Positions 45,350 to 64,000 of a DNA stretch of 64,000 bases are shown here, in pieces. The stretch is from Salipiger mangrovisoli (GTDB lineage: Bacteria > Pseudomonadota > Alphaproteobacteria > Rhodobacterales > Rhodobacteraceae). Position 1 is the first letter of the stretch; every line of letters begins with the position of its first letter. Where the stretch lies: assembly GCF_015223355.1 (NCBI RefSeq), contig NZ_JADFFK010000009.1, positions 184,788-248,787 on the forward strand. The letters are read 5' to 3'. Under the pieces are notes generated by a model, which searched no databases, was not told the origin of the DNA, and was given only the letters and a program-made list of their open reading frames with translations. Both the position numbers and the translations under genes were made by a program.

Positions 45350-45582
45350 GCCTGACGCAGGAGAAAATGCGCGCCGACATCGCCGAGGCGCTGGAGATCG
45401 CGCCGGAAGAAATCACCGCCGAGGCCAACCTCTTCGACCTCGGGCTCGACTCGATGCGGCTGATGTTGCTGGTCATGGGCTGGCAGGACGAGGCCGAGGA
45501 CGCGGATCTCTCCGAGATCTGGGAGCATCAGACCTTTGCCGGCTGGTGGGGTGTCGTCGCGGCCCAGAAGGTCGGGGTCTGA
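45346..45582 (+). CDS. Free-standing aryl carrier protein
   Basis: 78 residues, a single carrier domain. Phosphopantetheine attachment site S36 in FDLGLDSMRLMLLV; helix 1 at residues 3-18. Resembles the C-terminal ArCP part of EntB, but the isochorismatase domain is absent. It would carry 2,3-dihydroxybenzoate from EntE to the condensation domain of EntF. Translationally coupled to entE (ATGA) and one base from the entF start. Confidence 0.9.
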   Translation: MSLTQEKMRADIAEALEIAPEEITAEANLFDLGLDSMRLMLLVMGWQDEAEDADLSEIWEHQTFAGWWGVVAAQKVGV

Positions 45583-45583
45583 C

Positions 45584-48500
45584 ATGATACCGGGGCGCAC
45601 GGCTTTCCCGCTCACCGAGGCGCAGGAGGGCCTGTGGTACGCACAGGCGCTCGACCGCGCGAACCCGATCTTCAACTGCGGCCAGTACATCGAGCTGCGC
45701 GGCGGGCTTGACGTCGCGCGTTTCACCCGCGCCTTCGACGCGGCGGTGGCGCAGAGCCCTGCCTTGCGCCTGCGCTTCGGCATGGAAGGCGGCGCGCCGC
45801 GGCAATGGCTGGCCGAAGCGGGGCCGCGGCTGGAGGTGGTCGATCTGGCCAATGCCGGGGATCCCGAGGCCGAGGCGCTGGCGCGCATGTGGGCCGACAA
45901 TGATCGCGCCATCGACCTTGCCGAGGAGCAGGCCAGCCGTTTCGCGCTCTATCTTCTGAGCGGGGACCGCGCCTTCTGGTACGAGCGCATCCACCATCTC
46001 GCCACCGATGGCTTCGGCATCGTGCTTCTGACCAACCGTGTCGGAGAGCTGTATTCGGCGCAAGAGACCGGCAAGCCTCCGGCGCCGTTCCCGGCGCTCG
46101 GTGCTGTCTTCGAGGAAGACGCCGCCTACCGGGCTTCCGAACGCCGCGCGGCGGAGGCCGCCTTCTGGCAGGGCGAGATGCGCGGACTGGAAACGGTGGC
46201 AGGTCCCGCCGAGGGTCGGGCGGTCACCTCGACCCGCTTGGACCGGGCGCGTGCCGAACTGTCGCAGGAGTTTCGCGCCAGGCTGATGGCCGTCTCGAAG
46301 GCCGCAAGAGTGGGCTGGCCCGACGTTCTGACGGTGCTGACCGCCGCCTATTTCTCGCGCGTCTCGGGGACCGGCGAGCGGGTTTTCGGCCTGCCCTTCA
46401 TGGGACGCATGGGCACGAAGGCCGCCCGCGTCCCCTGCATGTGGATGAACGTGCTGCCCTACCGCTGCGACCCGGATGAGGATACGCCGCTGCCGGAGCT
46501 GCTGCAGGCCGAGGCGCGGCGGCTCGGCAGCCTGCGCAAACATGGGCGCTACCGCTCCGAACAGCTGCGCCGGGACCTGCGCCGCACCGCCATCGATGCC
46601 CGTCTCTATGGTCCGCTGATCAACGTGCAGCCTTTCGACATGCCGCCGCGCTTCGCCGGGCTTGAGGCGCATCTGCACATCCTCGGCGCGGGGGCGGTGG
46701 ACGACATCACCGCCACCTTCCGGGGCGACGCGATTGCCTCGCTGTCGCTCGAGATCGACAGCAACCCGGCGCTCTATTCCAAGGCGGAGGCGCGGGCGCA
46801 CCTCGCGCGTCTGGAAGTCTTCTTGATGGGGGCGCTCGGCAGCGAAAGGCTCGCCGACGTGCCGACGCTGACGCCGCAGGAAGAGCGGTGGGCGGTGCAT
46901 GGGGTCAATGCCACGGATCATCCGGTCCCCGAGATCACGCTCACCGATCTCATATGCGCGCAGATGCGTGCCACGCCGGACGCGCCTGCGGTGGCTTTCG
47001 GGTCAACGACCCTTAGCTATGCCGAACTGGACCGGCGCTCCGCCGCCCTCGCGTCGGCGCTGCACGCACGAGGGGCCGGGCCGGGAAAGGTGGTGGCCAC
47101 GGCGCTGCCGCGCTCCGAGCACCTTGCGGTGGCGCTGGTGGCAATCCTGCGCGCCGGGGCGGCCTATGTCCCGCTCGATCCCGAGAACCCGCCCGCCCGG
47201 CTCGGCGCGCTGCTCGAGCGTACCGGCGCTGTGGCGCTGCTGGCCGAGGCGGATCTCGACGCCGGCGGCATGGCCCCCTTTGCGCCCGAGGCATGGCCCG
47301 AGACCGGTGAAGCGCCCGAGCCCGGCACCACGCCGGACGATCTGGCCTATATCCTCTTCACCTCCGGCTCGACCGGCGAGCCCAAGGGGGTGATGATCGA
47401 GCACCGCGCCATCGTGAACCGGCTGCTGTGGATGCGCGACCACTATGGTATCGATACCGCGGACCGCATCCTGCAGAAGACCCCGATCACCTTCGACGTG
47501 TCGGTCTGGGAGCTGTTCCTGCCCTACCTCTGCGGCGGCACGCTGGTCTTTGCCGAACCGGGCGCGCATCGCGACCCCTCGGCCATCGCGCGGCTGGTCC
47601 GTGCGCAGGGCATCACCACGATGCATTTCGTGCCCTCGATGCTCTCGGCCTTCCTCGAGGCCCCGGCGTCGGAAGGGCTCGAACTGACGCGCGTTTTCTG
47701 CTCTGGCGAGGCGCTGACCGCCGAACACAGGACCCGCTTCCACGCGCGGGTCAAGGCGCAGCTGCACAACCTCTATGGCCCGACCGAGGCGGCGGTGGAC
47801 GTGACCTATTGGGACGCCGCGCCCGAGGACGAGAGTCAGCCGTTGCCCATCGGCTTCCCGGTCTGGAACACCCGCGTGCATGTGCTCGACGCGCGGATGC
47901 GCCCGGTGCCGCCGGGTGTTCATGGGCAGCTCTACCTCGGCGGGGTGCAACTGGCGCGGGGATACCTCGGGCGACCCGATCTGACGGCGGAACGCTTCGT
48001 CCCCGATCCCTTCCGCCGTGGCGCGCGGCTCTACGCGACGGGGGACGTGGCCTTCATGCGGCCCGACGGGGCGGTGGTCTACGCGGGCCGCGCCGATCAT
48101 CAGGTCAAGATCCGCGGGATGCGCATCGAGCCGGGTGAGATCGAGGGGGCCATCAGGGTCACCGGGCTGGTGCGCGACGCCGTGGTCATCGCCCGCGCCG
48201 ACGGTGGCGCGGAGCCGCGACTCGTGGCCTATGTGCTGACCGGCCCGGCCTTCGACAGCGCGCCGCTGCTGGCCGACCTGGCGACCGCGCTGCCCGCGCA
48301 CATGGTGCCCGCGGCGGTGGTCGCGCTGGAAAGCTGGCCGATGACCAGTTCCGGCAAGCTGGACCGCAAGGCGCTGCCCGCGCCGGTGCTGTCGATGCCG
48401 AAGGGCACGCCGCCGGTCGGCCCGGTCGAGGAACGTCTCGCGGCGCTCTATGCCGAGGTGCTGCACCTGCCGCAAGCGCCGGGGCGCGAGGCGGATTTCT

Positions 48501-49459
48501 TCGACCTTGGCGGCGACAGCCTGACGGCGCTGACCCTCAGCTTCCGCATCGAAGCCATCTTCGGGCAGGATCCGGGACTGGGGCAGATCTTCGAAACGCC
48601 CGGTCTTGCCCAGCTCGCACGAGCGCTGGAGATGGCGGACACGGCCCGCGCGGGTCTCGCCCCGTTGCTGCCGCTGGCCGAGGGGCAGGGGGCGCTGCTC
48701 TTCATCCTGCACCCGGCGGGCGGGTTGGGCTGGGGCTATCGGCGGCTGGCGCGGGCATTGACGGCGCCGCGCCCGGTCTTTGCCCTGCAATCCCCGATGC
48801 TGACCGGCGCACCGCTGCCCGGTGCTCTTCGCGCGCTGGCGTCGGATTACGCGGACCGGATCGAGGCGCAGGCACCACGCGGGATGATCCATCTCGCAGG
48901 CTGGTCAGTGGGTGGTATTCTCGCCCAGGAGGTCGCGGTGGAGCTCGCGGCGCGTGGCCGCGCGCTGGGGCTGGTCGCGATGCTCGACAGCTATCCGGCA
49001 GAGTGCTGGCGCGCCGAGCCCGAGCTGACCGACGCCGAGGCGTTGCGCGCGCTTCTGGCCATTGCCGGGCACGATCCTGACCGCCACCCGGATCTCGACA
49101 GCCGCGCCGCAGTGGTAGGCTTTCTCAAACAGGGCGGCACCCCGCTCGGCAGCCTGCCGGACGCGGTGCTTGATGCGGTGGTGCAGCTGGTCACCGGCAC
49201 CAACCGGCTGATCCGGGGGCACCATCATCGGCGCTACGACGGCGTGCTCACCCATGTCCGCGCGGCGCGCGATCACGCGGGCCGCGACCTGCATGCGGGG
49301 CTCTGGGCGCCTCATGCGGCGCAGGTGGTGGCGATCGACCTGCCGCTGTTGCACCCCGAAATGGTCTCGCAGGCGGCGGCCGAGGCGCTGGGGCCGGCGT
49401 TTTCGGCGCGCATGGTCGCGGCAGAGGCTGGGCAGCTGACGGAGGTGCTGCGCGCCTGA
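45584..49459 (+). CDS. entF: Non-ribosomal peptide synthetase EntF (C-A-T-TE)
   Basis: 1291 residues, almost the same as E. coli EntF (1293). Condensation domain 1-430 with HHLATDG (137-143); adenylation domain about 455-880 (LFTSGSTGEPKGVM, NLYGPTEAAVDVTYW, GRADHQVKIRGMRIEPGEIE); carrier S979 in LGGDSLTAL; thioesterase with S1108 in GWSVGG, and His in LLHPEM. Pocket residues read D-V-W-H-F-S-L-V-D plus the usual Lys, identical to the serine code of EntF. It should condense dihydroxybenzoate with L-Ser and release a cyclic or linear ester. The frame open from 45536 overlaps the carrier gene and is not the start. Confidence 0.95.
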   Translation: MIPGRTAFPLTEAQEGLWYAQALDRANPIFNCGQYIELRGGLDVARFTRAFDAAVAQSPALRLRFGMEGGAPRQWLAEAGPRLEVVDLANAGDPEAEALARMWADNDRAIDLAEEQASRFALYLLSGDRAFWYERIHHLATDGFGIVLLTNRVGELYSAQETGKPPAPFPALGAVFEEDAAYRASERRAAEAAFWQGEMRGLETVAGPAEGRAVTSTRLDRARAELSQEFRARLMAVSKAARVGWPDVLTVLTAAYFSRVSGTGERVFGLPFMGRMGTKAARVPCMWMNVLPYRCDPDEDTPLPELLQAEARRLGSLRKHGRYRSEQLRRDLRRTAIDARLYGPLINVQPFDMPPRFAGLEAHLHILGAGAVDDITATFRGDAIASLSLEIDSNPALYSKAEARAHLARLEVFLMGALGSERLADVPTLTPQEERWAVHGVNATDHPVPEITLTDLICAQMRATPDAPAVAFGSTTLSYAELDRRSAALASALHARGAGPGKVVATALPRSEHLAVALVAILRAGAAYVPLDPENPPARLGALLERTGAVALLAEADLDAGGMAPFAPEAWPETGEAPEPGTTPDDLAYILFTSGSTGEPKGVMIEHRAIVNRLLWMRDHYGIDTADRILQKTPITFDVSVWELFLPYLCGGTLVFAEPGAHRDPSAIARLVRAQGITTMHFVPSMLSAFLEAPASEGLELTRVFCSGEALTAEHRTRFHARVKAQLHNLYGPTEAAVDVTYWDAAPEDESQPLPIGFPVWNTRVHVLDARMRPVPPGVHGQLYLGGVQLARGYLGRPDLTAERFVPDPFRRGARLYATGDVAFMRPDGAVVYAGRADHQVKIRGMRIEPGEIEGAIRVTGLVRDAVVIARADGGAEPRLVAYVLTGPAFDSAPLLADLATALPAHMVPAAVVALESWPMTSSGKLDRKALPAPVLSMPKGTPPVGPVEERLAALYAEVLHLPQAPGREADFFDLGGDSLTALTLSFRIEAIFGQDPGLGQIFETPGLAQLARALEMADTARAGLAPLLPLAEGQGALLFILHPAGGLGWGYRRLARALTAPRPVFALQSPMLTGAPLPGALRALASDYADRIEAQAPRGMIHLAGWSVGGILAQEVAVELAARGRALGLVAMLDSYPAECWRAEPELTDAEALRALLAIAGHDPDRHPDLDSRAAVVGFLKQGGTPLGSLPDAVLDAVVQLVTGTNRLIRGHHHRRYDGVLTHVRAARDHAGRDLHAGLWAPHAAQVVAIDLPLLHPEMVSQAAAEALGPAFSARMVAAEAGQLTEVLRA

Positions 49460-49474
49460 GCCGCGGTGCGGGGC

Positions 49475-50353
49475 TCAGGCGCGGGCGGCCAGTGCCAGGG
49501 CACCCGGCAGCGAGGCGGGCAGCGCGGCGATATGCACCGCGCCGGGATAGACCTGTGCCGAGATCTCCAGCCCTGCAGGTCTGGCCCGCAGCCGCTCGAT
49601 CGCCCGCAGCGTCGCGGCGGGCGGGCCGTCCGGCTGCGGGCCGGCGCTGCCGGTGCGCTTTTCCCTGTCGCCCATGCCGAAATGGAGCGGCCGGGCGCGC
49701 CCCTCGGCAATGCTGCGGGTGTCCACGAGCCGCGCCACCAGCGCTTCATCCCACCAGACCGAGGGGCTGATCGCGGCAAAACGGGCAAAGCTCTCGGGGC
49801 GCGTCAGTGCGCTATAGAGCGTGAAGAGCCCGCCGAAACTGTGTCCCCAAAGCGTGCGCCGCGCCGGATCGACAGGCAGGTCACGCTCGACCTCGGCGCG
49901 GATGCTGCCGGTGAGCCGGGCGAGGTAGGTCTCGGCCCCGCCCGCGAGGCGCTCGGGGTGATGCGGGTCCGGGCGAGGTGCGGCTCCGGCGCAGACGGGA
50001 GGCGAGTAGTCGAAGATGCGGTGCGCGCGGGCGAACTGCTTTTCGGTGTCATAGCCGATGCCCGCGAGCACCAGCCCCGGCGCGGATTCGAGCAGCGCAG
50101 GGGTCAGGAAATCGAAGGCGGCGTTGCCGTCCAGCATGTAGAGGATCGGCCAGCCGCTGGCGGGCGCGCCTTCCTTCGGCACCGCGAGGAAGAGCCGGAC
50201 AGCCGGTGCCTCGGGGTCGTCGGGACCACAGCTTGCGCGTGGCAGGACGCGGCTACTCAGGACGTGCGAAGCAACGGGCACCGAAAGGATTTCCAGCGTC
50301 GCCTCGCGCCCGCGATGCGGTGGCAGGGGGGCCTGCGGGGCTGTTTCGCACAT
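49475..50353 (-). CDS. Siderophore esterase, IroE/BesA-like
   Basis: 292 residues from the ATG at 50353. Alpha/beta hydrolase of the esterase-D/Fes group: PILYMLDGNAAFDFL, GIGYDTEKQFARAHRIFDYSPP, nucleophile TLWGHSFGGLFTLYSAL, Asp in FGMGDREKR, His in YPGAVHIAAL. IroE-type enzymes open the Ser trilactone of enterobactin-like siderophores. No obvious signal peptide, so probably cytoplasmic iron release. Convergent with entF (15-bp gap) and divergent from the ferric-siderophore importer, sharing an iron-type operator. Confidence 0.85.
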   Translation of the reverse strand: MCETAPQAPLPPHRGREATLEILSVPVASHVLSSRVLPRASCGPDDPEAPAVRLFLAVPKEGAPASGWPILYMLDGNAAFDFLTPALLESAPGLVLAGIGYDTEKQFARAHRIFDYSPPVCAGAAPRPDPHHPERLAGGAETYLARLTGSIRAEVERDLPVDPARRTLWGHSFGGLFTLYSALTRPESFARFAAISPSVWWDEALVARLVDTRSIAEGRARPLHFGMGDREKRTGSAGPQPDGPPAATLRAIERLRARPAGLEISAQVYPGAVHIAALPASLPGALALAARA

Positions 50354-50373
50354 GACATTCGCTCTCGGGCTTA

Positions 50374-50398
50374 TTAGTTGACAATACCACTCAAGTAA
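50374..50398. promoter_or_regulatory. IRO-like iron-responsive operator (TGA-N9-TCA)
   Basis: In the 96-bp gap between the divergent esterase and importer genes, TTAGTTGA (50374-50381) and TCAAGTAA (50391-50398) form an inverted repeat with nine bases between. The core is TGA-N9-TCA, the RirA recognition (IRO) motif known from Rhizobium. It suggests iron-dependent repression of both the uptake and esterase genes. Confidence 0.72.
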
Positions 50399-50449
50399 TT
50401 TCCCTTGGCGCCGGCTGCAATGGCCGATCGTGCCGAAGAAAGGACTCCC

Positions 50450-51586
50450 ATGACTCTGCGTCTCAGGCATCCGCGAACCCTCTGGGCCAGCTGGCTCCCG
50501 TTTGCCCTTCTGCTGGTTGTTGCGAGCCTGACGCTGTCTGCCGCGCCGGTCCGGGCCGAGATCCGGGTGACCGATCTGGCGGGACGCGACGTGGTGCTGC
50601 AGGCTCCGGCACAAAGGATCGTGCTGGGCGAGGGGCGGCACCTTGCGGTGCTGGGGATGTTGCACGATGATCCGGTGGCGCTGCTGGCGGGCTGGCGGCA
50701 GGACAAGGGGCTCGACCCGGCCACCTATGAGGCCTATCTCGCCAAGTTCCCGGCGCTGGCCGACGTGGCGGCGGTGGGGGCGGGCAACCGGCAGCTCTCG
50801 GTCGAGAGCACCATCGCGCTGATGCCGGATCTCGTGCTGCTGAGTCTCATGGATGCGCGCGATCCGCAGATGGAGATGCCGCTGCGCCAGCTCGAGGCCG
50901 CGGGAATCCCGGTGGCTTTCGTAGATTTCTTCACGGCGCCGCTGGACAACACCCTGCCGAGCCTGCGTCTGATCGGCGCGCTGACCGGGGCCGAAGCGCG
51001 GGCGGAGGACTTTGCCGAATTCTATCAGGAGCACCTTGATGCCCTGCGCCTGACGTTGAAGGCCACGCAGCCCGCACCGCCGCGTGTGTTCATCCACGTG
51101 CACGCGGCGCCGAACGGCTGCTGCGCCACCGTCGGGCCGGGTGTTTTCGACGAGTTCGTCGAGGCGGCCGGCGGCTATAACATCGGCCGCGACAGCGTGC
51201 CGGGGGTGATGGGCAACGTCGGGCTCGAGAACCTGCTGGCCGCGGATCCCGACGTCTACCTTGCCACGGGCGGCGCGCATATGGCGGCGCGGGGCGGGTT
51301 GGTGCTGGGCGCAGGCATCGACGCGGAGACGGCGGAGCAGAGTTTCGCCGCGCTGACCGCGACCCCCGGCTTCGCGGACCTGCGCGCCGTTCAGGAAGGG
51401 CGGGCGATCGGCATCTGGCACCTGTTCAACGACTTCCCGGCGCATATCGCGCTGATCGAGGCGCTGGCCAAGCGCTTCCACCCGGACCTTTTCCCGGACC
51501 TCGACCCGATGGCCACCATGGCCGAGTTCGAGGACCGTTTCTCGCCGGTTCCGATGAGCGGCAGCTACTGGACCCCCGCCGAATGA
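50450..51586 (+). CDS. Ferric-siderophore ABC transporter, periplasmic binding protein (FecB/FepB-like)
   Basis: 378 residues from the ATG at 50450 (ribosome site AAAGGA). Signal peptide MTLRLRHPRTLWASWLP...APVRA then EIRVTDLAGRDVVLQAPAQRIVLGEGR, the helical-backbone metal receptor pattern (Peripla_BP_2). NVGLENLLAADPDVYLATGG and EGRAIGIWHLFNDFPAHIALIEALAKRFHPDLFPDLDP are typical of FecB/BtuF. It binds ferric siderophore in the periplasm. ATGA overlap with the permease gene. Confidence 0.9.
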   Translation: MTLRLRHPRTLWASWLPFALLLVVASLTLSAAPVRAEIRVTDLAGRDVVLQAPAQRIVLGEGRHLAVLGMLHDDPVALLAGWRQDKGLDPATYEAYLAKFPALADVAAVGAGNRQLSVESTIALMPDLVLLSLMDARDPQMEMPLRQLEAAGIPVAFVDFFTAPLDNTLPSLRLIGALTGAEARAEDFAEFYQEHLDALRLTLKATQPAPPRVFIHVHAAPNGCCATVGPGVFDEFVEAAGGYNIGRDSVPGVMGNVGLENLLAADPDVYLATGGAHMAARGGLVLGAGIDAETAEQSFAALTATPGFADLRAVQEGRAIGIWHLFNDFPAHIALIEALAKRFHPDLFPDLDPMATMAEFEDRFSPVPMSGSYWTPAE

Positions 51587-52626
51587 GCGCGGTGGAGGCG
51601 ATCCTTGCCGAACAGACCCGGCGCAGCCAGCGCCGCGTGCAACTTGTTGCCCTGCTTGCGATTGGGGCGCTCGCCTCGGTTCTGCTCGACCTCGTCTCGG
51701 GGCCCTCCGGCCTGCCGCTCGGGCAGGTGCTGCGGGCGTTGACCGGCCTCGGCGAGGTGCCGAAGGCCGCCGAGGTGATCGTCTGGCAGGTGCGCCTGCC
51801 GGTGGCGGTCATGGCGCTGCTGGTCGGGGCGGCGCTGTCGCTCTCGGGCGCCGAAATGCAGACCGTGCTCGACAACCCTCTGGCCGAGCCCTTCACTCTG
51901 GGCATCTCCGCGTCGGCGGCGCTTGGTGCCGGTACGGCGATCGTTCTGGGTCTCGCGATTCCCGGCATTCCGGCGCTCTGGGCCGTCTCGGCCAATGCGT
52001 TCCTCTTCGCGCTGCTCGCGCTGGGGCTGCTGCAACTTGCCGCGGCACTGCGCGGCGGCGGCTCCGAAGTGGTGATCCTGCTGGGCATCGCGGTGAATTT
52101 CACCGCTGCGGCGCTGCTCGCGCTGGTGCAATTCGTCGCCTCGCCGGACGCGCTGCAGCAACTGGTGTTCTGGACCATGGGCAGCCTCGTCAACGCCCGC
52201 TGGGAGGGCATCGCGGTGCTGGCGCTGGTGCTGGCGCTCTGCCTGCCGTTCTCGCTGGCCGCCTCGTGGCGGCTGACCGCGCTGCGGCTCGGGGCTGATC
52301 AGGCGCAGGGCTTCGGGCTCGACGTGGCGCACCTGCGGCGCTGGACGCTGGTGCGGGTGAGCCTGCTGGCCGCGGCCTCGGTCTCGATGGTCGGCGTCAT
52401 CGGCTTCGTCGGCCTCGCCGGGCCGCATATCGCGCGCATGGCGGTCGGCGAGGATCACCGTTTCCTGCTGCCCGCCAGCCTCTTCACCGGGGCGCTGCTG
52501 ATGTCGCTGGCCTCGGTCGCCTCGAAGCTGCTGGTGCCGGGCATCCTGCTGCCGGTGGGCATCGTCACCTCGCTGGTCGGCCTGCCGGTGTTCTTCGCGC
52601 TGATCTTGCGGGGGAGCGCGCGATGA
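51583..52626 (+). CDS. Ferric-siderophore ABC permease (FecCD family)
   Basis: 347 residues with about ten hydrophobic segments. FecCD motifs: VRLPVAVMALLVGAALSLSGAEMQTVLDNPLAEPFTLGISASAALGA, TLVRVSLLAAASVSMVGVIGFVGLAGPHIARM and LPVGIVTSLVGLPVFFALI. Homodimeric inner-membrane channel of the importer. ATGA overlaps on both sides. Confidence 0.93.
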   Translation: MSAVEAILAEQTRRSQRRVQLVALLAIGALASVLLDLVSGPSGLPLGQVLRALTGLGEVPKAAEVIVWQVRLPVAVMALLVGAALSLSGAEMQTVLDNPLAEPFTLGISASAALGAGTAIVLGLAIPGIPALWAVSANAFLFALLALGLLQLAAALRGGGSEVVILLGIAVNFTAAALLALVQFVASPDALQQLVFWTMGSLVNARWEGIAVLALVLALCLPFSLAASWRLTALRLGADQAQGFGLDVAHLRRWTLVRVSLLAAASVSMVGVIGFVGLAGPHIARMAVGEDHRFLLPASLFTGALLMSLASVASKLLVPGILLPVGIVTSLVGLPVFFALILRGSAR

Positions 52627-53408
52627 GCCTCGATATTCGTGGCCTGACGGTCGCGCGCGGGACGCGCAAGGTGATCGACGGGCTGACCCTGCCGACGTTT
52701 GCAATGGGCGAGTTCGCGGTGATCGCCGGTCCGAACGCGGCGGGCAAGTCGACGCTTCTGCGGGCGATTGCCGGGCTGCTCCCCTCGACGGGCGAGGTCC
52801 TTCTGGAAGGGCAGCCGCTGCACGCTCTGCCGCGCGCCGAGATGGCGCGGCTCATCGGCTTCATGCCGCAGAGCCTCGAAAGTCGCTCGGCGCTGACGGT
52901 GCTCGACAGCCTGACCGTGGCGATGAACGCGGGCGGCGGGCTGGCCGGGCGGGCGCTGCGCGGCCCCGCCGCCGGGCGTCACGCGCTGGAGGTTCTGGAG
53001 CGCTTCGGGCTTGCCGATCTGGCACTGCGGCCGATGGCGGCGCTCTCGGGCGGGCAGCGGCAGGCGGTGGGGCTGGCGCAGGCGATGATCCGCGACCCGA
53101 AGCTGCTGCTGCTCGACGAGCCGACCTCGGCGCTCGATCTGGCGCGGCAGTTCCAGCTTCTGTCAGAGGCCCGCAAGCTCGCATGCGAGGGGCGCATCGT
53201 CATCGCGGTGCTGCACGATCTGGCGCTGGCGGCGCAATGGGCTGACCGGGTGGTCCTGCTCGAAGGCGGCGCGCTGCGCGCCTCTGGCGCGCCGGCAGAG
53301 GTGCTGACGCCGCAGAGCCTGTCACAGGTCTACGGCATCGAGGCACGGGTCGAACGCTGCTCTGAAGGGCGCGTGATGGTCATGGTGGACGGGCTCTCGC
53401 AGCCCTGA
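52623..53408 (+). CDS. Ferric-siderophore ABC ATP-binding protein (FepC/FecE-like)
   Basis: 261 residues. Walker A AGPNAAGKSTLLRA; IGFMPQSLE Q-loop; signature LSGGQRQAVGLAQAM; Walker B LLLLDEPTSALDL; H-loop AVLHDLALAA. The P-loop has Ala in place of the usual Gly (NAAGKS), as in several siderophore ATPases. Energises the FecCD permease. Confidence 0.92.
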   Translation: MSLDIRGLTVARGTRKVIDGLTLPTFAMGEFAVIAGPNAAGKSTLLRAIAGLLPSTGEVLLEGQPLHALPRAEMARLIGFMPQSLESRSALTVLDSLTVAMNAGGGLAGRALRGPAAGRHALEVLERFGLADLALRPMAALSGGQRQAVGLAQAMIRDPKLLLLDEPTSALDLARQFQLLSEARKLACEGRIVIAVLHDLALAAQWADRVVLLEGGALRASGAPAEVLTPQSLSQVYGIEARVERCSEGRVMVMVDGLSQP

Positions 53409-54147: not shown

Positions 54148-55344
<1,197 letters not shown>

Positions 55345-58205: not shown

Positions 58206-58901
58206 TCACGCCGCCAGCGTGCGGGCGGTGCCGCGGCGTTCGGTGACCCGCAGCCTGTAGCCTTCGCCGCGCACTGTCTCGATCGACAGCGCCGCCTCGA
58301 CGGGGGCGAGATGGGCGCGCAGGTTGCACATGTAGACATCGAAGACCCGCGGCGCGGGTTCGTTCTCGAAGCCGTAGACGTGGCTCATCAGCGTCTCGCG
58401 CGTGGCCAGTCGACCGGGGCGCAGCGCGAGGAATTCGAGGATCTCGTAGAGCTTTGGCGACAGCGAAAGCGTGGTTGCCCCGAAATGCACCCGGCGCCGT
58501 TCCAGATCGAAGCGCAGCGGGCCGCAGTCGCTGACCGGCAGCGAGACGCCATGCGCGCGGCGGGCCACCGCGGCGAGCCGTGCGATGATCTCTTCGGGCG
58601 CCGCGTCCGAGGACAGCACGGTGTCGGCCCCGGCCATCAGCCAGGCGGCGATCTGCGCGCCGTCGGACTCGCGGGCGATCAGCGCGATCGGCACCTCTGG
58701 GTTGAGGTCCCGCAGATGGGCGAGGGTGGTGTGGCTGCGCAGCACGCCGGCATCGACCACCAGAAGATCATGCGCGCCGATACGGTGAAATTCCTCGATG
58801 TCCTCGGCTGCTTCGCAACGGGTCAGCAGCGTGCCGGTCTGCGACAGCGCATGGCCGAGGCTCATCATTTTCCAGGTGGTTTCAGCAATCAGGTAGCGCA
58901 T
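58206..58901 (-). CDS. OmpR-type response regulator with degenerate receiver
   Basis: 231 residues from the ATG at 58901 (ribosome site AGGAG). The C-terminal winged helix is intact (RLATRETLMSHVYGFENEPAPRVFDVYMCNLRAHL, IETVRGEGYRLRV) and CtrA-like in flavour. The receiver is atypical: the N-terminal acidic pair is reduced to AETTW, D50 (LLVVDAG) could be the phospho-Asp, and the conserved Lys near residue 100 is replaced (TVLSSDAA). No kinase gene adjacent. It is probably phosphorylation-independent or atypically controlled. Confidence 0.82.
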   Translation of the reverse strand: MRYLIAETTWKMMSLGHALSQTGTLLTRCEAAEDIEEFHRIGAHDLLVVDAGVLRSHTTLAHLRDLNPEVPIALIARESDGAQIAAWLMAGADTVLSSDAAPEEIIARLAAVARRAHGVSLPVSDCGPLRFDLERRRVHFGATTLSLSPKLYEILEFLALRPGRLATRETLMSHVYGFENEPAPRVFDVYMCNLRAHLAPVEAALSIETVRGEGYRLRVTERRGTARTLAA

Positions 58902-59185
58902 GGGCAAGCTCCTCCTAAGCACCGCGGGCGTGGGCGCCGACGGCGGGTCCGTTCGATTGGGGCGAGGGTGACCGTTCTTGCAGGTCTGCCGGGTAACCGG
59001 GCCATCCCGTGAGCCCATCCGGGTCCGTCGGGGGAGGGCGGCGCGTTCTGCGGCCCGTTCCAAGAGGTACCGCCCAATTGTGCCCGAAATGTGTTGGCAT
59101 CTTGGGCGGGCGAGGATGATTTGTATCAAGGCGCTATACCTTCGCAGAGCCCATGATGCCGCAAGGTCAGGAAAGGAGGCCTCGT

Positions 59186-60721: not shown

Positions 60722-61225
60722 CAAAGAACTCCTAACAAAAAATCATTTCAAGAAAAAATATCTAAGTTCTTGTGGGCTGCCCGGCTGCAAGGCAAGCGGT
60801 TTCTGTCTCAAGGCAGCCATTGCTCGGTGCTCCGCCTGTCAGGGCACATTCGAGCGGCGACATCCCCCGCGAGCGCGCGGGTTGAAGCCATGGCGGGTGT
60901 CGGGCGGCGGTGCTCGCTGAGGGTGCCCGAGTTCGGCGATTCGAGCGAGCGGCAGCGTGATTTGACCAGGCGCCATGCCAAGACGATGCTGCGGATGCAG
61001 CCGTATCGGCAATGTTGCTCAACCGGAAACAGAGGCTTGCCCGGAAAATGAGCGGATTTCCCGCATCGGCACCATTAAATTCAGGCGCAGGCTTCCAATG
61101 AATTTTCACCTATCTACCTGAAAACAATGTATATTAGTCCTATGCGTAAAATGGATTACATTCCGCCCTTAGAAGGGCATCTTAAAATGTCTGTGAGGTA
61201 TAGGTTAATGCAGCCTTAAAGATAA
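60722..61225. other. Intergenic region upstream of the peptide operon
   Basis: About 500 bp. The first 300 bp is GC-rich; overlapping open frames on both strands (60762-61109 minus, 60770-61051 plus) are without start signals or motifs. The last 150 bp is clearly AT-rich, unlike the surroundings. It contains an inverted repeat, GCCCT (61165-61169)/AGGGC (61174-61178), which may be an operator for the operon starting at 61285. Confidence 0.5.
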
Positions 61226-61254
61226 TTGGCAGAGTATCTGCGCTTTGCTATAGT
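61226..61254 (+). promoter_or_regulatory. Promoter of the peptide operon (sigma70-like, possible sigma54 overlap)
   Basis: TTGGCA (61226-61231) and TATAGT (61249-61254) are separated by 17 bp, a near-consensus -35/-10 pair 30 bp before the start codon. The same -35 region also reads TGG then TGC with GG and GC ten bases apart, the spacing of a sigma54 -24/-12 element. The first reading is stronger. The gene start follows AAGGAG. Confidence 0.6.
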
Positions 61255-61284
61255 CTGATTCATTGAAAAAAGGAGTTTTCTAGC

Positions 61285-61503
61285 ATGACTGATAAGACAC
61301 CTCAGGGTGACTCCCTGGAATCCCCCGGCCGTCGCGAGCTGCTTGGCAAGGCCGGGAAATACGCAGCGGTTACGCCGCTTGCAGTCACCGCGCTTCTCTC
61401 CACCTCGATGAAGGCTGATGCCGGCGGCATCTTCCGTTCTGGCGGGATGAAGCACAAGAAAAAGTACAAGATGAAGAAGAAGTACGGCCACTATAAGCAC
61501 TAA
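61285..61503 (+). CDS. Precursor-like small exported peptide with basic tail
   Basis: 72 residues. Three parts: an acidic/polar N-terminus; a twin-Arg-type export leader (G15-R-R-E-L-L-G-K-A-G, then a hydrophobic stretch 26-40, AxA at 44-46); and a 26-residue tail G47-H72 with nine Lys, three His, three Tyr and one Arg and no acidic residue. The predicted mature peptide is strongly cationic. There is no Cys and no lasso, lanthipeptide or sactipeptide signature. An HPr-kinase-like gene and a nucleotidyltransferase gene follow on the same strand, so the peptide may be their substrate. Family not recognised. Confidence 0.78.
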   Translation: MTDKTPQGDSLESPGRRELLGKAGKYAAVTPLAVTALLSTSMKADAGGIFRSGGMKHKKKYKMKKKYGHYKH

Positions 61504-61506
61504 GCC

Positions 61507-61535
61507 CGCCGGGGGCCGGCGTTCTTCGGTCTCCT
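61507..61535 (+). terminator. Hairpin with pyrimidine tail between peptide and kinase genes
   Basis: CGCCGG (61507-61512) pairs with CCGGCG (61516-61521), followed by a pyrimidine-rich TTCTTCGGTCTCC stretch. It sits four bases after the peptide stop and may act as a partial terminator or attenuator, so that the peptide is made in excess of the kinase. Such leaky hairpins follow many precursor-peptide genes. Confidence 0.5.
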
Positions 61536-61548
61536 GATTTTCTTCATT

Positions 61549-62643
61549 TTGAGAAGACGTTTTTCGTTGAGTGAAAACCTTTTTGTCCTCCCCGCAGCAG
61601 GGGTCACGCTGGCGGAAGTGAACCGTCAGCATCTTCTCTTAGTCCCAGAGAAGGAGCTTCTGTTTTCGGCCACTCCCCCGGTGGCCGAGGCTTGGGCAGG
61701 GTTCGAACTTGGCGTTGCGTCCGTGACATCGGATGCCGCCGCTGCGACTGGCGGCGGCATTCTTGCGGACCTGATACAGATCGGCGCGCTGGAGCCGCTG
61801 GCCACGACGAGCGGACCGGCCCGCGTTTGCTGTTCCGAAACGCTTGATCTTGCGGGGCTGCGTGTCGGCCTTGCCTTCGAGGACGAGAACCTTCGCGCAG
61901 AGCTCATGCCCTGTTTCGCGCATCTTGGCGTGCCGCCCAGCCGGGGCGACGATCATATCGTCGTGCAACGCCAGGGCGAGCTCATCGGCATCGCCCGCCG
62001 CGACGAGGATATCGACTGGGTGGCACCGCACGAGGCGGTGCCGCTGCTCAAGATCAAGCTGACCGAAGTCCTGTTCGACCACACCCATGACGTCATGCTG
62101 CATGCCGCCCAGCTTGAACGGCAGGGGCGATGCCTGCTGCTGCTCGGCGACGCGGGTGCCGGCAAGAGCACGCTTGCCACCGCGCTCGAAGAAGCGGGCT
62201 TCTCATTGCTGAGCGACGACATCGTGCTGCTGTCGCGGAGCGGCGAGGTCGCCGCACTGCCATTTCCGGTGACGTTGAAAGAGGGCTCCTGGACGCTGCT
62301 CGGACACCGCCGTGAAGAGATCGAAGGCGCTGGACAGCACCTGCGCCCGGATGCGCTGAACGTGCGCTACCTGGGGCTGAAAGGCGATGGTGGCTGGAAG
62401 GATGTGGGCTGGGTCTTGAAGCTCGATCGCCAGTCCGAAGGCGCGGCTTCGATCAGGGATCTGAGCCTGTCCGAGGTCTTCTCGGCCATGCTTGCGGCCG
62501 CCTGGTCGGGCGAAGAGGCCATGTCGCCCGAAGTCTTCGCCGCGATGGCAGGATGTCTGCAAGGCGCGCGCCACGGACGGCTGACGTATTCGGATTTGCC
62601 GCGTGCCCTCGTCGAGGTGTCGCGGTTCTGTGACGTGGAATGA
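61549..62643 (+). CDS. HPr-kinase-like protein (HprK-related)
   Basis: 364 residues from a TTG at 61549; a second TTG at 61567 is also possible, and neither has a strong ribosome site. The kinase-like core has P-loop G200-DAGAGKST (LLLLGDAGAGKSTLATALEEAGFSLLSDDIVLL), a preceding H185 (DVMLHAAQLE) as in HprK, and an Asp pair 223-224. The first 150 residues are unlike HprK. HprK-related kinases occur in lasso-peptide clusters (where they phosphorylate the peptide) and in exopolysaccharide loci. No HPr or PTS gene is nearby, so HPr is an unlikely substrate. Confidence 0.82.
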   Translation: MRRRFSLSENLFVLPAAGVTLAEVNRQHLLLVPEKELLFSATPPVAEAWAGFELGVASVTSDAAAATGGGILADLIQIGALEPLATTSGPARVCCSETLDLAGLRVGLAFEDENLRAELMPCFAHLGVPPSRGDDHIVVQRQGELIGIARRDEDIDWVAPHEAVPLLKIKLTEVLFDHTHDVMLHAAQLERQGRCLLLLGDAGAGKSTLATALEEAGFSLLSDDIVLLSRSGEVAALPFPVTLKEGSWTLLGHRREEIEGAGQHLRPDALNVRYLGLKGDGGWKDVGWVLKLDRQSEGAASIRDLSLSEVFSAMLAAAWSGEEAMSPEVFAAMAGCLQGARHGRLTYSDLPRALVEVSRFCDVE

Positions 62644-62783
62644 ACGTGTAAAGCGGAGGTGTTCCTGGGAATTCAAGTTGGAAGTGATTGTCTGTAAGTG
62701 ATTTTTTCAGAATTTTTTTTGCGTCTCCGCGTTCAGGTTTGTGACCGCGTTTCGCCATTTTTTAACGGCAATGGAATGGGTAC

Positions 62784-63755
62784 ATGAGAGCAGGTTTTAC
62801 TGCGACTTCCCCTCTGGAAAGCCTTGGCCGCGCATTGTGCGGCGACCTTGGTCATGTGCCCGACTGGGCAGGGCTGATCGGCACGGCCAATGACGAATTC
62901 GTCACGCCAGCCCTGTATCACCGGCTGCGCCAGGGAGATGTTCCGTCCGCCGAACCCGAGGCGATGGCCTACCTCGGAGAGCTCGATTCCCTCAATTGTC
63001 GTCGGAATCGCAGCCTCTGGGCCATGGTCGCGGACTGCACGGGGCTGCTCAATGCCGCGGGCATCGTGCCGACCCTGATCAAGGGCGCCAGCGAGATGGC
63101 GCTTCAGGACGATCCCGCGCAATTTTACCGGCTGATGATCGACGTCGACATGCTTGTCGAGCCGAACGAGGCCGAACACGCGCAGCGCCTTCTGGCCGAG
63201 GCCGGGTTCACCGTGCTCGAGGACAGCGAGTATGAGCATTCGCCCGGCAGCTTCTGGAAAGAAGGCTACCTCGGAACGCTTGATCTGCACGCGGGCCTGC
63301 AATCGGGAATCGCGCGGTTCCTTCAGGGCGACGACTGGCAGCGGCGGCGTGTTCTTTGCGAAAAGGACGGGCTGCGATTCCGCGTCCCCGATCCCTCTCT
63401 GCGGCTGCTGATCAATATCAGCCATGACATGCTGCATCACACCGGGCTGGCCAGGGGCGGCATCAGCTTGCGCTACCTGCTGCCGCTGCGGATGCAGCTC
63501 CAGCAGGAGGCGGCGGGTCTCGATTGGCCCTGGCTTCTCGGGCTGCGGCGCGACCGCGCTTTCCGCCTCGCCTTCGATCTTCAGATGCTCATGCTTGAAG
63601 AGATCTTCGACATGCCGCTGCCGCCCGGGGTGCACCCCGATCGGCTCACCCGGCTGCTGCACCGCCGCCGCCTGCTCAAGGCGCGCCATCCGGGCTTCGC
63701 AGAGCTCGAGTGGGCCGTGGTGAAGCCAGTCTACACCCGGCTGAAGAAGCGTTGA
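62784..63755 (+). CDS. Nucleotidyltransferase-fold protein (NTP_transf_5 family)
   Basis: 323 residues from the ATG at 62784. Nucleotidyltransferase core: IVPTLIKGASEMAL (K100) and FYRLMIDVDMLVEPNE with D120/D122. A helical C-terminal half contains PDPSLRLLINISHDMLHHTG and a tail rich in Arg. Proteins of this family are frequent beside HprK-like genes in RiPP and polysaccharide loci; substrate and cofactor are unknown. It follows the kinase-like gene by 140 bp of AT-rich sequence. Confidence 0.82.
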   Translation: MRAGFTATSPLESLGRALCGDLGHVPDWAGLIGTANDEFVTPALYHRLRQGDVPSAEPEAMAYLGELDSLNCRRNRSLWAMVADCTGLLNAAGIVPTLIKGASEMALQDDPAQFYRLMIDVDMLVEPNEAEHAQRLLAEAGFTVLEDSEYEHSPGSFWKEGYLGTLDLHAGLQSGIARFLQGDDWQRRRVLCEKDGLRFRVPDPSLRLLINISHDMLHHTGLARGGISLRYLLPLRMQLQQEAAGLDWPWLLGLRRDRAFRLAFDLQMLMLEEIFDMPLPPGVHPDRLTRLLHRRRLLKARHPGFAELEWAVVKPVYTRLKKR

Positions 63756-63908: not shown

Positions 63909-64000
63909 ATGAAGATTGCCATCATCGGCACCGGCTACGTGGGGCTTGTCTCCGGGGTCTGTTTCTCGGATTTCGGCCACGAGGTGGTCTGCGTCGACAA
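63909..64000 (+). CDS. UDP-glucose 6-dehydrogenase (3' partial)
   Basis: The first 30 codons are present, [23 protein letters not shown] then HEVVCVD, running off the window. This is the characteristic N-terminal NAD-binding motif (GxGYVGL) of UDP-glucose/GDP-mannose dehydrogenases of the Ugd/TuaD group. The enzyme makes UDP-glucuronate, the substrate of the epimerase encoded on the other side of the peptide module. AAGG lies about nine bases upstream of the ATG. Confidence 0.9.

Follow-up and report, generated by a model that had tools for sequence, protein, structure and literature searches.

What does a gene for a 72-residue peptide do beside the genes for an HprK-like kinase and a nucleotidyltransferase? 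The question is raised by one end of a 64,000-nucleotide stretch of Salipiger mangrovisoli DNA, here called the window (assembly GCF_015223355.1, contig NZ_JADFFK010000009.1, positions 184,788 to 248,787, forward strand). The assembly consists of 95 contigs totalling 6.35 Mb; at the end of contig C95, inside a ugd gene, the window stops. An earlier note on this DNA had described three consecutive same-strand genes, and the open reading frames (ORFs) were found as it placed them:

61285 to 61503, forward strand: gene for the 72-residue precursor-like peptide, with a leader resembling those of twin-arginine translocation (Tat) substrates (residues 1 to 46), an invariant Ser52 within SGG, and a variable tail rich in Lys and His
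61567 to 62643, forward strand: gene for the HprK-like kinase with an RRE-type domain, with an alternative start at TTG 61549 (364 residues from that first TTG)
62784 to 63755, forward strand: gene for the NTP_transf_5 enzyme of nucleotidyltransferase fold (323 residues), matching PF14907

The earlier note had proposed that the peptide is phosphorylated and/or nucleotidylated and exported to act with an acidic surface polysaccharide. The recurrence of the module and the kinase residues speak for this proposal, while its phosphorylation, its sugar and its tie to polysaccharide stay conditional. It was altered in three respects: the Tat-like leader, a predicted leader-binding domain on the kinase, and the use of one enzyme pair for many peptides. 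On balance, we judge it just probable that the leader guides phosphorylation of the invariant serine, that a sugar is then placed on the phosphate, and that export follows, probably by Tat.

The peptide family

Relatives were collected stepwise: the Salipiger peptides served as query for looser relatives in the class, and the resulting alignment gave a profile and a sequence pattern that found many more. From those found, 41 peptides were chosen for alignment, 26 drawn by the pattern and 15 not. The leader follows the consensus RRxFLxxCGRFAAVTPPAVTxLLST and is succeeded by one invariant Ser, usually in SGG, and a variable tail. Nine columns were invariant (R16, R17, L20, G24, A27, T30, P31, A46 and S52), of which G24, A27, T30 and P31 belong to the search pattern for the 26 rows, while the other five lie outside it and all nine hold in the remaining 15 rows too. 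Following the serine, SG was present in 38 peptides and SGG in 31. Of the Tat features, RRx[FL]L was present in all 41 and an AxA motif within six residues before the Ser in 36.

61438 to 61440, forward strand: codon of Ser52, the proposed phospho-acceptor (Ser in 41/41 aligned peptides, including the 15 non-pattern rows)

Over codons 1 to 54 of seven orthologous Salipiger peptides, the proportion of synonymous differences (pS) was 0.24 to 0.64 and that of non-synonymous differences (pN) 0 to 0.054. Since the differences are mostly synonymous, the peptide is translated and its leader strongly constrained; a conserved Shine-Dalgarno sequence and promoter accompany this. The earlier note had named a lack of translation as a refutation of its reading. 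The tail varies in length and content among the seven orthologues.

No Pfam family matched the peptide, and the NCBIfam matches were at chance level, as were those to galactokinase and other families, which were discarded. A profile search of a protein database gave 963 relatives among 7985 candidates scored; the 120 listed had no Pfam domain, and the named ones were hypothetical or uncharacterized proteins. Literature searches returned no description of the peptide family or the module among titles and abstract starts. On sequence grounds, the peptide is a member of an unnamed alphaproteobacterial family.

Some members at loci L116, L119, L135 and L061 have 144−171 residues with Gly/Ser-rich tails, so the leader is also carried by larger cargo. 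Genome G390 encodes, in tandem, three small peptides whose leaders are similar but whose tails are Cys-rich (L063:7430-8266, contig G390:C61); its kinase and nucleotidyltransferase genes lie on a different contig. These and two G603 peptides, which may be distant relatives of the family, were excluded from alignments A3, A4 and A7. In one Salipiger, a solitary second peptide copy lies upstream of mraW (L013:9658-9858, contig G011:C1), with no kinase or nucleotidyltransferase in the 19 kb fetched and with no CtrA-type site.

The kinase and its predicted leader-binding domain

62101 to 62220, forward strand: kinase catalytic set, His185, P-loop Lys206 and Asp223-Asp224 (numbered from 61549)
61606 to 61803 (approximate limits), forward strand: predicted PqqD/RRE-type domain at the N-terminus, modelled as three strands followed by three helices and matched by profile

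The second gene had been called an HprK-like kinase with an intact P-loop. The loop, GDAGAGKST, is present, and matches were obtained to TIGR04352 (HprK-related kinase A; E 9.3e-18, 64.3 bits, curated cut-off 200) and PF07475 (E 5.2e-6), both under their curated cut-offs; TIGR00679 (HPr kinase/phosphorylase) reached 26.9 bits with a cut-off of 240. TIGR04352 also matched 31 of 31 kinases (best E 8.7e-32), a likeness qualified by the low score of the window kinase and by its PqqD part, which is fused to it. In the HprK-related kinase A cassette, we take the PqqD part to be a separate protein. A literature search found no paper using ‘HprK-related kinase A’ or ‘HPr-rel-A system’. A separate short HprK is encoded elsewhere in the genome (G000:C22, 56.5 bits). 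For the module kinase, the start at TTG 61567 is the more likely, because its context TTGAGTGA is invariant at seven of seven loci and the upstream TTG (61549) is missing in L014.

A likeness to lasso-peptide kinases had also been suggested, and the His-Lys-Asp-Asp set named for those kinases in PMC9266682 is kept: His, Lys and the first Asp in 31 of 31 kinases, the second Asp in 29. What the earlier note overlooked is the PqqD/RRE-type domain in the N-terminal third of the ORF, predicted from profile and model to be a leader-binding domain. Profile A8, built from the N-terminal domains of the kinases, matched the lasso B1/RRE proteins TbiB1 (5v1u; E 1.9e-6) and TfuB1 (6jx3; E 3.8e-4) over nearly the whole domain, consistent with a beta3-alpha3 winged helix akin to solved RREs; the window sequence was linked to it via alignment and model. 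Compared with TbiB1 and TfuB1, the module RRE is fused to the kinase and no lasso peptidase accompanies it.

Lasso-type residues and a lasso-type RRE in one protein might point to a lasso-peptide cluster that has its cyclase and peptidase encoded at other sites of the genome. This we find hardly credible: Transglut_core3 (lasso peptidase B2) was absent from 13 of 14 module genomes, that of the window among them, and lay ~3.3 Mb away in the 14th, so no B2 leader peptidase accompanies the precursor and this explanation was rejected. The ORFs surrounding the module in L012 and L014 included no evident Asn-synthase-like cyclase, though no family search for one was run.

The nucleotidyltransferase-fold enzyme

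The assignment of the third gene to NTP_transf_5 held, its PF14907 score of 77.8 bits exceeding the curated cut-off of 31.2. The nucleotidyltransferase motifs KG (63081-63086) and DxD (63141-63149) were invariant in 28 of 28 sequences, and a nucleotidyltransferase fold is predicted. PF14907 is without a close solved relative, and its fold is also compatible with nucleotide or phospho-sugar transfer. The enzyme could transfer a nucleotide (AMPylation or UMPylation), or a whole phospho-sugar in the manner of FKRP/LicD, onto the phosphopeptide or Ser52 directly. The FKRP/LicD phospho-sugar transferases are similar in fold, but have no sequence match to the enzyme, and the reported products of the one tested relative bore hexoses, not nucleotides. 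We regard this alternative as unlikely.

Occurrence and genome layout of the module

Co-occurrence of the three genes in other genomes had been set as the test of the earlier reading. Of 20 genomes from the genus, 7 carry the trio, which also occurs beyond the genus, and the test did not refute that reading; in the four relatives with a sufficiently long stretch (L012, L014, L015 and L016), it sits between a divergent epimerase gene and ugd. A contig scan gave 242 pattern matches, of which 209 were confirmed and the best 80 (78 loci) retained. By profile, both kinase and nucleotidyltransferase were present within 7 kb of the peptide at 35 of these 78 best loci (module loci), neither at 43 (orphan loci), and never one alone. 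Contig ends left 14 of the 43 orphan and 2 of the 35 module loci shorter than 14 kb, and part of the 43 may be false orphans. The module loci belong to Sinorhizobium/Ensifer, Pararhizobium, Mesorhizobium, Bradyrhizobium, Tardiphaga, Rhodopseudomonas, metagenome-assembled genomes and one unclassified record.

When the whole genomes behind 20 of the 43 orphan loci were searched, one kinase match was present in 19 of the 20 (E 7.5e-102 or better), with the nucleotidyltransferase adjoining it in all 19. At E 1e-6, 34 of the 35 genomes searched had 1−11 peptide matches each, a few of them partial. Up to 11 scattered peptide matches seem to share one kinase/nucleotidyltransferase pair, a layout that does not look like that of a natural-product cluster with one peptide.

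A separate survey covered 385 genomes of the class, with five kinase candidates scored per genome. Peptide matches at E 1e-3 were present in 17 genomes (including an oxidase in G485 and other weak matches) and kinase matches below 1e-30 in nine, those above this value being treated as ordinary HprK-type or P-loop proteins. Of the nine, eight also had a peptide (Fisher 1.9e-11), as did four of five once the six genomes that gave query rows were removed (Fisher 1.9e-6); G390 was counted as a peptide genome in both, and these P values, like those below, overstate the significance because they ignore relatedness among the loci. The association across the class is strong but not absolute. One kinase match above E 1e-30, in G543, adjoins a weak peptide match.

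Among the weak peptide matches, three were rejected: G437 (by eye, inside an unrelated frame of 675 residues), G224 (inside a frame of 568 residues) and G485, recognised from its translation as the N-terminus of a likely Tat-exported FAD-dependent oxidase. Further weak matches, in G327, G151, G342, G518, G643 and G674, were left out. The likeness of the leader to the N-terminus of this apparent Tat substrate (G485), found with the same profile, favours another reading, in which the peptide is just a small protein exported by Tat and the kinase regulates the nucleotidyltransferase or a polysaccharide enzyme, not the peptide. We consider this quite improbable, given that an RRE-type domain is fused to the kinase and that a kinase/nucleotidyltransferase pair accompanies the peptide, either next to it or elsewhere in its genome, except in G425, G433, G713 and G622.

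Polysaccharide surroundings

63910 to 64000, forward strand: start of ugd (UDP-glucose 6-dehydrogenase), broken by the contig end
59660 to 60724, reverse strand: divergent NAD-dependent sugar-nucleotide epimerase (Epimerase E 5.6e-54, GDP_Man_Dehyd E 4.6e-51), presumably of the UDP-glucuronate epimerase type

Of the 35 module loci, 19 carried a polysaccharide marker, as did 2 of the 43 orphan loci (Fisher 7e-7), every one of the twelve markers having been taken from module loci or the window. When the marker-source loci L135, L145 and L172 were removed, the association persisted (Fisher 6e-6). Among loci of at least 14 kb, the counts were 18 of 33 module and 1 of 29 orphan loci (7e-6), or 15 of 30 module loci without the source loci (4e-5). 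The module is flanked by ugd and the epimerase in Salipiger, by rml genes in Bradyrhizobium and kin, by Wzx/Wzy and a sugar transferase in Mesorhizobium, and by galU and a glycosyltransferase in G691; rml, galU and ugd were named from their sequences. In relatives, a full-length ugd copy follows the nucleotidyltransferase gene. The polysaccharide neighbourhood claimed earlier was therefore frequent at module loci but not universal: the link appears common and occurs in several lineages, and its functional side stays conditional.

This unevenness bears on whether the peptides are instead a secreted natural product, a bacteriocin or signal of a new class of ribosomally synthesized and post-translationally modified peptides (RiPPs), with the polysaccharide genes incidental. 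A conserved leader joined to a variable tail is a hallmark of RiPPs, as is an RRE enzyme. All nine Sinorhizobium/Ensifer module loci lacked a polysaccharide marker; the S. meliloti module (L122) lies among genes recognised from their ORFs as housekeeping genes, and at the Mesorhizobium locus L172 an HlyD-like export gene, recognised likewise, lies ~5 kb off. However, in most genomes searched a single kinase match goes with several scattered peptides, and the markers distinguish module from orphan loci as given above. A natural product is rather improbable.

Two large proteins are encoded in the vicinity of the module: in Salipiger relatives one with a right-handed beta-helix (L012:2820-5528), and in Mesorhizobium one with cadherin/Ig domains (L145:7415-10861), the latter with homologues at 15 module loci and no orphan locus. 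Both are possible surface partners of the peptide. The contig breaks within ugd (63909-64000), and these 92 bases are 96% identical to the end of contig C20; possibly ugd is present twice in the genome and the assembly broke there for that reason.

Proposed mechanism

From the parts list, conservation and genome layout we infer the following chemical steps. The RRE domain would grip the conserved core of the leader, and the kinase would phosphorylate Ser52 just past it. Next, the NTP_transf_5 enzyme would use a nucleotide sugar as donor and attach its sugar to the phosphate, by analogy with pseudomycoidin, where PsmN was reported to add sugar to phosphate after PsmK (PMC9266682 and PMC8498205). 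In Salipiger, the donor may be UDP-glucuronate, UDP-galacturonate or UDP-glucose, because ugd lies directly downstream and the epimerase diverges upstream. Modification would come before export, since Tat moves finished substrates and neither the kinase nor the nucleotidyltransferase showed an obvious export signal, no search having been aimed at one. The finished peptide would leave, probably by Tat, with its signal removed, and the mature basic tail with its sugar-phosphate would sit at the cell surface beside acidic polysaccharide.

Apart from the relatedness of the loci, the origin of the markers, the columns fixed by the pattern, the marker-free Sinorhizobium/Ensifer loci and the breadth of the PF14907 fold, several observations weigh against this mechanism. 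As a single sequence, the window kinase had no PqqD match. The full Tat consensus RRxFLK was present in just 21 of the 41 peptides, and the NCBIfam Tat model matched only two of them, weakly. None of the 41 has a C-terminal Ser, the residue on which lasso kinases act, and the phosphorylation site must therefore differ from theirs. In just 5 of the 19 orphan-locus genomes with a kinase does a peptide lie within 1.5 kb of it, and in G669 the nearest is ~50 kb away. A peptide without a kinase was found in G713 and a kinase without a peptide in G622; G425 and G433 had strong peptides and no kinase at E 1e-8 among the five candidates scored per genome, with no PF14907 match in G425 either.

The closest known parallel is PsmK/PsmN, described in the same two papers, in which an HprK-homologue kinase is paired with an enzyme of the nucleotidyltransferase family and the substrate is a ribosomal peptide. 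The Salipiger-type module differs in the missing lasso peptidase (13 of 14 genomes), the RRE fused to the kinase, the Tat-like leader, an invariant Ser that closely follows the leader instead of ending the peptide, and the layout of one pair with up to 11 dispersed peptide matches. A kinase/nucleotidyltransferase pair acting on a peptide is thus already known from lasso peptides; the missing peptidase, the fused RRE, the other likely acceptor position and the sharing of one pair among several peptides set the present module apart.

In sortase and exosortase-type sorting, one enzyme handles many tagged substrates. The module resembles such systems in its single enzyme pair per genome and its dispersed short substrates with a shared sorting-like sequence, and differs in that the tag is N-terminal and Tat-like and the enzymes have kinase and nucleotidyltransferase folds. 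A bolder extension, which we put forward tentatively, is a genome-wide tagging system of alphaproteobacteria: one RRE-kinase and one NTP_transf_5 glycosyl or glycosyl-phosphate transferase would put a sugar-phosphate on the serine of dispersed peptides, and the exported phosphoglycopeptides would anchor or prime surface polysaccharide.

Promoter and neighbouring genes

61205 to 61219, forward strand: full-length CtrA-type site TTAA-N7-TTAA, here TTAATGCAGCCTTAA, immediately upstream of the -35 element
61226 to 61254, forward strand: sigma-70-like promoter TTGGCA-17-TATAGT, conserved in the seven-locus DNA alignment
61270 to 61275, forward strand: Shine-Dalgarno sequence AAGGAG of the peptide gene, AAAGGAGTTTT being identical at seven of seven loci
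61511 to 61534, forward strand: GC-rich stem-loop then a T-rich stretch in the gap between peptide and kinase genes

According to PMC6180460, a full CtrA site is TTAA(N7)TTAA and sites for activation lie near -35; the motif definition was also taken from PMC9437464. The Salipiger operon promoter has this arrangement. The site is the sole match in the 64 kb (0 expected in 100 shuffles), and in seven of seven Salipiger operon promoters the TTAA halves are kept while the N7 spacer varies. This pattern in the DNA suggests control of the operon by the CtrA phosphorelay. The site was absent from the other 52 of the 59 peptide upstream regions examined (220 bases each). The promoter scan by itself was weak, with one promoter found and 0.6 expected. 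The region holds nine stem-loops of the kind at 61511 to 61534, with 3.4 expected; this one is poorly conserved in the seven-locus alignment and was dropped as a terminator-like element, leaving it a weak candidate for an attenuator.

A CtrA-like regulator is encoded one gene past the epimerase (58209-59000, reverse strand), with a universal stress protein gene between. Its best NCBIfam match was the Rhodobacterales CtrA (103 bits, cut-off 350); it has the DNA-binding domain and no Pfam receiver match, and a homologue lies near the module in relatives L014-L017. This regulator could read the TTAA-N7-TTAA site. Another cell-cycle gene near the module encodes a CcrM-type adenine methyltransferase with a RAMA domain (54148-55335, reverse strand; 638.9 bits, cut-off 830). 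Further off on the forward strand are an EntF-like single-module non-ribosomal peptide synthetase (45536-49459; 848 bits against a cut-off of 2400) and, after it, an ABC permease of iron-siderophore type with an ATPase (51583-53408), likely a siderophore locus (45536-53408).

Significance

With one enzyme pair and many peptides, the layout is more like that of a sorting system than that of a natural-product cluster. Under the proposed mechanism, the orphan pair of HprK-like kinase and NTP_transf_5 enzyme would have its own family of substrates, in bacteria as tractable as Sinorhizobium meliloti, and leader-guided phosphoglycosylation would be set apart from lasso peptides. It also suggests a way for genetically encoded peptides to be tied to exopolysaccharide. 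If genome-wide tagging were true, the shared Tat-like leader would be what is recognised, the modified serine would adjoin the leader cut, and the products would be a bacterial counterpart of Ser-Gly-linked proteoglycans.

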